Shown one piece after another: positions 32,824-37,470 of a stretch of DNA of 37,470 nt. Source of the stretch: Candidatus Colivicinus equi (GTDB taxonomy: Bacteria > Bacillota_I > Bacilli_A > Erysipelotrichales > Erysipelotrichaceae); the NCBI GenBank assembly GCA_018064825.1, contig JAGHUL010000042.1, positions 1-37,470 on the forward strand, read 5' to 3'. The first letter of the stretch is position 1. The number at the start of each line of letters is the position of its first letter. The position numbers and the translations under genes were made by a program. A model generated the notes under the pieces. It saw only the letters and a program-made list of their open reading frames with translations, ran no database searches and was not told the origin of the DNA.

Positions 32824-35212
<2,389 letters not shown>

Positions 35213-36245: not shown

Positions 36246-36261
36246 ATCCTCGCCTCCTTTT

Positions 36262-36288
36262 TTAGCACTCTAAACTTCCTACTGCTAA
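36262..36288. promoter_or_regulatory. degenerate CIRCE-like element proximal to hrcA
   Basis: TTAGCACTC-N9-TACTGCTAA: left arm 9/9, right arm 7/9 of consensus. Confidence 0.7.
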
Positions 36289-36289
36289 T

Positions 36290-36318
36290 ATAGTACAACA
36301 ACTATTTAGCACTGTCAA
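36290..36318 (-). promoter_or_regulatory. hrcA operon promoter
   Basis: Minus strand TTGACA (36318-36313), 17-nt spacer, TACTAT (36295-36290). Confidence 0.75.
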
Positions 36319-36332
36319 CATATAAGTGCTAA
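36306..36332. promoter_or_regulatory. CIRCE element distal to hrcA
   Basis: TTAGCACTG-N9-AAGTGCTAA: only the innermost base of each arm differs from consensus; the -35 hexamer lies inside it. Confidence 0.85.
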
Positions 36333-36341
36333 ATCTAGGAT

Positions 36342-36360
36342 AAATTATGGCTGCTATATT
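36342..36360 (+). repeat. 19-bp direct repeat, copy 1
   Basis: AAATTATGGCTGCTATATT, identical to 36624-36642. Confidence 0.9.
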
Positions 36361-36375: not shown

Positions 36376-36531
36376 CACAACTATATTTGAAACGCACAAA
36401 CTCAAAATGAAACGAGTGGTGTTTTTTTAAAAGAAAATAAGGATTTTTTCATCATTTCAACAAACTATATGTGAAACAGAAGTGTTAAAAATTTAATAAA
36501 ATTGCTAAAAAACACAAACTGTATTTGAAAC
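36376..36531 (+). repeat. cluster of ~19-nt imperfect direct repeats (ACAAACTnTATTTGAAAC)
   Basis: CACAACTATATTTGAAAC (36376-36393), CACAAACTCAAAATGAAAC (36395-36413), AACAAACTATATGTGAAAC (36459-36477), CACAAACTGTATTTGAAAC (36513-36531). Confidence 0.75.
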
Positions 36532-36534
36532 AAA

Positions 36535-36577
36535 ATCTTTGGGTCGGTTTCCGACCCAAAAGATATTTTATTTATTT
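36535..36577 (+). terminator. strong terminator-like hairpin with no recognised upstream gene
   Basis: ATCTTTGGGTCGG-TTT-CCGACCCAAAAGAT (one bulge) followed by ATTTTATTTATTTTTTT on the plus strand. Confidence 0.75.
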
Positions 36578-36623: not shown

Positions 36624-36642
36624 AAATTATGGCTGCTATATT
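36624..36642 (+). repeat. 19-bp direct repeat, copy 2
   Basis: AAATTATGGCTGCTATATT; here it includes a start codon preceded by AAGGAGG. Confidence 0.9.
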
Positions 36643-36772
36643 GGAAATTACGGAAAAGTTAAAAGTATACAAATATCTATTAAACTTTGAAAAAGAGTTC
36701 GATATATTCTCTATAATTATTATCCTTTTTTATAATACTTTCGTATATAAATATGAATGTTATAAAATATGA
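36629..36772 (+). CDS. possible 47-aa small ORF (not in supplied track)
   Basis: ATATAAGGAGGAAATTATG then MAAILEITEKLKVYKYLLNFEKEFDIFSIIIILFYNTFVYKYECYKI*; good RBS, no recognised family. Confidence 0.45.
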   Translation: MAAILEITEKLKVYKYLLNFEKEFDIFSIIIILFYNTFVYKYECYKI

Positions 36773-36787
36773 ATAGAGGAGAACATT

Positions 36788-37057
36788 ATGACACAAAAAC
36801 AATTAACAGATGAAGAATTAAATAAAGTATCCGGAGGAGCAAACGTATCAACACTCCAAGGCTTTAACAAAGGTGATAGCCATATTTATGATTATCCAGG
36901 TGGTAGCGCTCATATTAGACTTACTATAGAAGAAATCGATGATTCTAGATTTAATCCTTTCCATTTGAAATTAGAATATATGCGTTCAAATTATCAAGTT
37001 TATCTAACGGAAGATACTTGGATGACATTAGATGACTTGAAATATTTCTGGAGTTAA
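36788..37057 (+). CDS. double-glycine leader (bacteriocin/RiPP-like) precursor peptide, 89 aa
   Basis: MTQKQLTDEELNKVSGGA leader with GG motif; AGAGGAG RBS; remaining 71 aa Cys-free. Confidence 0.75.
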   Translation: MTQKQLTDEELNKVSGGANVSTLQGFNKGDSHIYDYPGGSAHIRLTIEEIDDSRFNPFHLKLEYMRSNYQVYLTEDTWMTLDDLKYFWS

Positions 37058-37115
37058 TAATAATCTTTAGTTTGATTCAGTAAATAATCTAATCAATAAA
37101 AGAATGTATAACATA

Positions 37116-37147
37116 AAAACTCAGTTCATCATCATGAACTGAGTTTT
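37116..37147. terminator. bidirectional terminator between the two small leader-peptide genes
   Basis: AAAACTCAGTTCAT-CATC-ATGAACTGAGTTTT, 14-bp perfect stem. Confidence 0.85.
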
Positions 37148-37183
37148 CTATTATAATTAATCTTTTAAAAACGGCTTATTCTT

Positions 37184-37327
37184 CTAATCCACTTCCACTT
37201 CACGTGGTTCTAACGCTGATCCACCAGAGACTAGCTCCAGTTCGTCATCTGTTAATTCTGCAATCTTATTATTTAATGTTTCGTATTCTTGTTTTAATTG
37301 ATTTAATTCTTCTTGTGTTTTTGCCAT
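37184..37327 (-). CDS. double-glycine leader small peptide, 47 aa (not in supplied track)
   Basis: Translates as MAKTQEELNQLKQEYETLNNKIAELTDDELELVSGGSALEPREVEVD*; ELTDDELELVSGG is a classic double-glycine leader; AAGGAAA upstream of ATG. Confidence 0.75.
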   Translation of the reverse strand: MAKTQEELNQLKQEYETLNNKIAELTDDELELVSGGSALEPREVEVD

Positions 37328-37353
37328 AAATATTTATTTTCCTTTTTTGTTTT

Positions 37354-37470
37354 TTACTCGTTATAAAAAACAAACTCATCATCATGACCAATTATTGTTA
37401 TAGTAACACCATTAGGGATAGTAGAAAAACGAATAGAATCATCTACATATTTAGCTCCTTGAGTGTATTT
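37354..37470 (-). CDS. 3' end of a small protein gene truncated by the right window edge
   Basis: Open minus-strand frame ...KYTQGAKYVDDSIRFSTIPNGVTITIIGHDDEFVFYNE*, stop 26 bp upstream of the 47-aa peptide start. Confidence 0.5.
   Translation of the reverse strand, partial: KYTQGAKYVDDSIRFSTIPNGVTITIIGHDDEFVFYNE

Follow-up and report, generated by a model that had tools for sequence, protein, structure and literature searches.

Two double-glycine leader genes at a contig edge probably belong to a dispersed peptide-export repertoire with many unrelated cores

The window analysed here, a 37,470-base stretch of Candidatus Colivicinus equi (JAGHUL010000042.1), carries at its right edge two small convergent genes of 89 and 47 amino acids (aa), whose products begin with double-glycine (GG) leaders. 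The question raised by this locus is whether the pair marks the edge of a cluster for a bacteriocin or another ribosomally synthesised and post-translationally modified peptide (RiPP), with its transporter or maturases to the right, as the initial annotation proposed. Both open reading frames (ORFs) are present as it described them, and so is the tail of a third small coding sequence upstream of the 47-aa gene, which runs off the contig end. The right flank could not be read because the window is the entire contig (C83) and the assembly ends at base 37470; an overlap of this end with other contigs of the assembly was sought, and no join was found. In this study, we believed that both ORFs encode substrates of a dispersed peptide-export system in which the leader is a reusable export tag, and we give this reading a probability of about 70%.

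The leader-family profile check of TIGR01847 (bacteriocin_sig) gave 17.8 and 15.7 bits for the 89-aa and 47-aa ORFs, respectively, at a cut-off of 15.7. In published work, substrates of peptidase-containing ATP-binding cassette (ABC) transporters (PCATs) of Gram-positive bacteria share the consensus [ILV]-12, E-8, L-7, V-4 and GG at -2/-1 (PMC12184118). Both window leaders agree with it at each defined position (L-12, E-8, L-7, V-4 and GG), and the 47-aa ORF has approximately 24 paralogous places in its own genome, with E-values down to 1.5e-13. Given the profile scores, the paralogues and the consensus fit, the leaders are more than chance. Together with a C39 peptidase gene in the genome, this agrees with the earlier view that they are of the C39-exporter type. 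For the 47-aa gene, the ORF and its leader held, and the proportions were corrected: the leader takes up 36 aa and the mature part only 11 aa. Named class II bacteriocin and lanthipeptide families scored both ORFs below every cut-off, and the TIGR01847 leader signature alone reached its own. For the Nif11-like leader TIGR03798, the 47-aa ORF had 13 bits against a cut-off of 32.3, and the 89-aa ORF had no listed match.

The two genes are not alone. TIGR01847 matched 32 places in the window's genome, about half of them above the cut-off, and 34 GG-leader peptides of two kinds were read from these and the paralogous places. Type A leaders run to about 36 aa and resemble that of the 47-aa ORF; type B leaders are short, like that of the 89-aa ORF. 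The peptides are spread across many contigs, singly or in small groups amid housekeeping genes. Among 396 evenly drawn genomes of the phylum, 11 had any match, and all except the window's own were weak and mostly within long ORFs. With one genome taken for each GTDB species, a scan placed type A leaders only in metagenome assemblies, from several clostridial and erysipelotrichial lineages; the host, where a record or paper names one, is the horse (PMC8957277), and the records of the form 'S..M_St' name none. Conservation in relatives was found, the 36-aa leader being present in G026 and G027, two genomes of the same genus (the window's own genome is G000 below). Altogether, type A comprises 86 distinct peptides from 11 gut genomes, with cores that are nearly all mutually unrelated. 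This is a pattern of leader duplication and joining to new cores. The mature parts of both window ORFs contain no Cys, as previously noted, and this does not extend to the repertoire, in which many sibling peptides are Cys-rich. Viral contigs queried with the type A leader gave no relatives, and therefore no phage link is seen. One leader sequence is shared by the ends of two G000 contigs, at C18:2-100 (-) and C91:2-109 (+); therefore, repeated leaders may have broken the assembly.

A C39 transporter, whose absence from the genome would have spoken against the initial annotation, was found. The genome-wide profile search gave a single Peptidase_C39 match (E 1.2e-36, C56:165-551). This gene has rsmI and a short HlyD-like gene as neighbours; truncated at 197 aa by the contig end, it scores 256.8 bits against TIGR03796. 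The same rsmI-side synteny is uncut in G026, where the HlyD-like gene (158 aa) is followed by a 722-aa ABC1 gene and then an ABC2-type gene. The ABC1 protein passes TIGR03796 with 915.9 bits (cut-off 853.3), the ABC2-type gene, its stretch truncated where the locus ends, reaches 604.6 bits against a cut-off of 709.4, and the HlyD-like partner stays below the TIGR03794 cut-off (35.0 and 33.5 bits versus 156.2). Judged by these profiles, the putative exporter is of the NHLM/NHLP type, its HlyD partner being reduced. Neither a maturase nor a GG peptide lay in the 10 kb surrounding the G026 exporter, and no maturase was seen in the window, near the exporter or beside the paralogues examined, the whole genome not having been searched with maturase models.

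We propose that one NHLM/NHLP-type peptidase-ABC exporter, with its genes at another chromosomal site, would read the GG leaders, cut after GG, and release a 72-aa domain from the 89-aa product and an 11-aa peptide from the 47-aa product. On this view, gut Bacillota of this genus and beyond would have copied the leader and fused it in frame to a wide range of cores, some of which would be segments of conserved proteins, taken from self-like (GGGtGRT, UgpC) or foreign-looking (SusC plug, Hsp70) genes. The predicted cleavage and export of the cores by the NHLM-type exporter is well supported by the leader and profile matches.

Many cores resemble conserved proteins. In the window's genus, 39 cores were considered (38 of type A and one with a shortened leader, C86:24603), and about 15 of them matched protein families at E<=1e-3. 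Six cores matched SusC/RagA, with E-values of 9.3e-20, 7.3e-17, 7.4e-12, 5.5e-15, 1.1e-11 and 8.7e-11, all in the plug region (positions 96-216 of 981). Three matched a UgpC-type ABC ATPase (best 4.5e-14; one also ABC_tran, 1.2e-7), and two matched GGGtGRT (8.9e-25 and 4.1e-16). Single cores matched the Hsp70 N-terminus (2.3e-4), decarboxylase beta (2.4e-4) and NlpC/P60 (1.6e-7; GG peptide L192:3210-3731, -). The last has the motif FDASGLV, with Ala at the usual position of the active-site Cys. In genomes outside the genus, a LysM core was found at 1.4e-17. A cold-shock domain (5.8e-14) and a flagellin C-terminus (3.1e-8; PDB match 3.4e-5), also from outside the genus, and a PMP repeat from within it (5e-4) were attached to their cores by reading the sequences, the search table carrying no member names. 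Type B peptides with domains included a 2[4Fe-4S] ferredoxin (1.1e-12), a thioredoxin-like 2Fe-2S ferredoxin (7.7e-23), an acyl carrier protein (3.5e-10) and a second Hsp70 segment (3.4e-8). The first three, at L066:8316-8567 (-), L084 (-, start 2014) and L220 (+, start 844), respectively, resemble complete small domains. Two further candidates were set aside: an actin-like core in G026 (NDLYENIVISGGSTFYK) was suggestive and not significant (Pfam 0.098; PDB 0.07), and a SecY-like plus Walker-B-like core (C110:6627) was not significant on its own.

Controls on this homology were made in G000, G026 and G027. A six-frame search with the SusC model found GG-leader frames only, and a full-length SusC gene was not found in any of the three. 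The five other frames of the type A cores, 114 pieces of at least 22 aa, gave no Pfam match at E<=1e-3 (best 0.0041) and four matches at E<=0.05, against approximately six expected by chance. Therefore, it is the encoded protein, read in the export frame, that carries the core homology. The third-position guanine-plus-cytosine (GC) content of the cores is low, near that of the leaders, and matches the low GC of the host. A recG-side peptide locus holds SusC-like cores in both G000 and G026, which are two species, and therefore they are not an artefact of a single assembly.

The cores appear to differ in origin. GGGtGRT core DNA was about 80% (G000) and 90% (G026) identical to the full gene of the same genome, and UgpC cores were up to 84% identical to their own paralogues. 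Both look like copies of self-like genes. The SusC plug and eukaryote-type Hsp70 cores look foreign, and the nearest PDB sequences of the Hsp70 core were mostly eukaryotic HSP70s. The dnaK gene of the same genome (window 32824-34650) was rejected as the source of this core, with 58% nucleotide identity across 20 codons, 6 synonymous and 10 non-synonymous. The ratio of non-synonymous to synonymous substitution rates (dN/dS) was 0.09 between the GGGtGRT core of G026 and its own gene and 0.29 between the SusC cores of the shared recG-side locus. It came to 0.65 for the GGGtGRT core of G000 and to 0.64 for two SusC cores of that genome. All four values come from short segments, whose choice by protein similarity biases them downward. 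These ratios are suggestive of constraint on some cores.

Several observations weigh against the window ORFs being substrates of such a dispersed system. Neither window core matches a known protein, no immunity gene was recognised next to the repertoire peptides, and the exporter gene in the window's own genome is truncated by the contig end. In addition, the C39 gene occurs in 14 of the 36 genomes of the genus and the type A leader in only three (G000, G026 and G027); therefore, exporter presence does not imply this peptide family, and the exporter can do without the tag. A competing explanation is a conventional bacteriocin or RiPP cluster whose dedicated transporter and maturases lie beyond the contig end. 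It would suit the match of the leaders to bacteriocin-type models, the further small coding sequence at the extreme edge and the missing right flank. However, the paralogues are scattered among housekeeping genes, those examined have no maturase next to them, the sole C39 gene found lies on C56 beside rsmI, and the named bacteriocin families all stay below their cut-offs; the cluster placed to the right is thus improbable. A little less improbable, and still unlikely, is that SALEPREVEVD is a pheromone and the family mainly a signalling repertoire. The 11-aa product is signal-sized, many short hydrophilic cores sit on type A leaders in other genomes, and PCAT exporters are known to export pheromones, but no receptor or two-component system was seen beside the 47-aa ORF within the window, this core is not conserved among the relatives found, and the diversity of cores goes far beyond the needs of one signalling system. 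Chance ORFs or chimeric metagenome contigs could be suspected in a source assembly that counts 130 contigs and has an estimated contamination of 5.4%. The paralogy of the leaders, the recG-side locus in two separate genomes, the agreement of core GC with the host and the failure to find a full-length SusC gene in the three genomes speak against an artefact, which we consider hardly credible.

If the peptides are exported, what the cores do is a further matter. Mimics or antagonists, signals, envelope service resembling that proposed for the microbial anti-inflammatory molecule (MAM) and no function at all are the candidate roles, and we favour action on other microbes with modest probability. 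It is a speculative idea that the cores act extracellularly on other microbes by mimicry or interference, or as signals, and action on other cells through mimicry in particular is tentative. In its fullest form, this idea describes a mimic-export system in gut Bacillota (equine according to the records), in which a GG tag is joined to fast-changing segments of conserved, abundant proteins, both the bacterium's own and those of its neighbours (SusC plug, UgpC, GGGtGRT, Hsp70, flagellin and cold-shock protein). As mimics of these proteins, the segments would influence other cells or the way in which the host recognises them; we regard this form of the idea as possible and would not call it probable. 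Neutral capture is conceivable too, at odds well short of even: a duplicating leader would fuse to adjacent coding DNA, the exported fragments would serve no function under selection, and those cores that can be recognised would be recent captures. The 80-90% DNA identity of the GGGtGRT and UgpC cores to own genes, the stops that interrupt several type A copies, the dN/dS values near 0.65 and the majority of cores lacking any match all point this way. Blind capture should nevertheless leave out-of-frame or antisense homology, and none was found; the ratios of 0.09 and 0.29, though picked by protein similarity, and the retention of a SusC-like core at one recG-side locus shared by two species also stand against it.

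The features of the window's right edge are collected in Table 1. A purine-rich stretch precedes the start codons of both GG-leader ORFs. The 89-aa core had no Pfam match, and its weak relatives among G026 GG peptides reached only E 0.11 and 0.25; an SH3-like family assigned by eye was dropped because the alignment was too weak. The AlphaFold2 single-sequence model of the 89-aa product had a mean predicted local distance difference test (pLDDT) score of 65, with four strands and a C-terminal helix; block values were about 60-81 across residues 21-89, and the leader was of low confidence. The product probably folds. Compared with PDB folds, the model had no match at E<=0.001. The core of the 47-aa ORF, at 11 aa, is too short for searching.

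Table 1. Features at the right edge of the window
Feature	Position	Strand	Sequence or basis
89-aa ORF	36788-37057	+	MTQKQLTDEELNKVSGG / ANVSTLQ...
Type B double-glycine leader of 89-aa ORF, 17 aa	36788-36838	+	MTQKQLTDEELNKVSGG; TIGR01847; PCAT consensus
Predicted mature part of 89-aa ORF (72 aa, Cys-free) and stop codon	36839-37057	+	
47-aa ORF	37184-37327	-	MAKTQEELNQLKQEYETLNNKIAELTDDELELVSGG / SALEPREVEVD
Type A double-glycine leader of 47-aa ORF, 36 aa	37220-37327	-	MAKTQEELNQLKQEYETLNNKIAELTDDELELVSGG; paralogues; PCAT consensus
Predicted 11-aa mature peptide SALEPREVEVD of 47-aa ORF and stop codon	37184-37219	-	
C-terminal tail of a small coding sequence, truncated by contig end	37354-37470	-	open frame; no family match
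Perfect 14-bp inverted repeat with 4-nt loop, between the convergent 89-aa and 47-aa genes	37116-37147	.	

The third frame stops 26 bases upstream of the 47-aa start, and the two possibly form one transcription unit; nothing convincing was found for this frame in G026. The inverted repeat between the convergent genes may be a bidirectional terminator, a role put forward by inference only because the terminator scan did not list the repeat. Between hrcA and the GG-peptide genes lies a strong hairpin (36537-36561), terminator-like on either strand. Two CIRCE-like repeats (TTAGCACT...TGCTAA), 44 nt apart within 36261-36332, lie upstream of hrcA; as expected, this pair fits HrcA autoregulation of the hrcA-grpE-dnaK-dnaJ genes. 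A 15-nt repeat, AACTATATTTGAAAC, occurs three times between hrcA and the 89-aa gene (36379-36531, spacing 84 and 54 nt), and its copies are possible regulator sites. An exact 19-nt repeat, AAATTATGGCTGCTATATT, stands at 36342-36360 and 36624-36642; the second copy spans the start codon of another 47-aa ORF (36629-36772), which is directly upstream of the 89-aa gene and has no family match.

The exporter and the leader are themselves of a known kind. A leader family of which many cores are in-frame pieces of housekeeping or surface proteins was not found described in the open-licence PMC literature, nor were GG-leader peptides with SusC-like or housekeeping-protein cores; as evidence of novelty this is weak. 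Should the cores be functional, tagging and exporting a copied segment would be a new route to secreted effectors. If they are not, the birth of secreted genes from a duplicating export tag and existing coding sequence would still be visible. Either way, the uncharacterised and mutually dissimilar look of these genes would be accounted for.

Among known systems, the NHLM/NHLP export system (TIGR03794/TIGR03796/TIGR03797) is close in the G026 ABC1 gene with its C39 peptidase above the curated cut-off and in the HlyD-like and ABC2 partners. In contrast, the HlyD-like protein here is short and below its cut-off, the leaders fall below the Nif11-like cut-off, and no maturase was seen near the exporter. 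Prochlorosins are lanthipeptides in which one LanM modifies precursors with Nif11-type leaders, one conserved leader being joined to many unrelated, dispersed cores. The peptides described here likewise combine a single conserved leader with many unrelated cores dispersed over the genome, whereas no modification enzyme was seen beside those examined. With double-glycine PCAT substrates such as class II bacteriocins and ComC-type pheromones (TIGR01847), they share the leader consensus and the predicted cleavage after GG, but here there are more than 30 dispersed genes, with cores unlike known bacteriocins and many matching conserved proteins. MAM of Faecalibacterium is a gut Bacillota protein for which PCAT export through a GG leader has been proposed and which is not filed as a bacteriocin (PMC12184118). 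This proposed route is similar, but MAM is one conserved protein beside its PCAT, whereas the cores here are many and unrelated, and the MAM motif (MMMPANx(8,11)VxGG) is in neither window leader. Synthetic aggregation-inducing antibacterial peptides carry segments that recur in many bacterial proteins (PMC5830399). Those peptides were designed, whereas the present cores are natural; the two have such recurrent segments in common.
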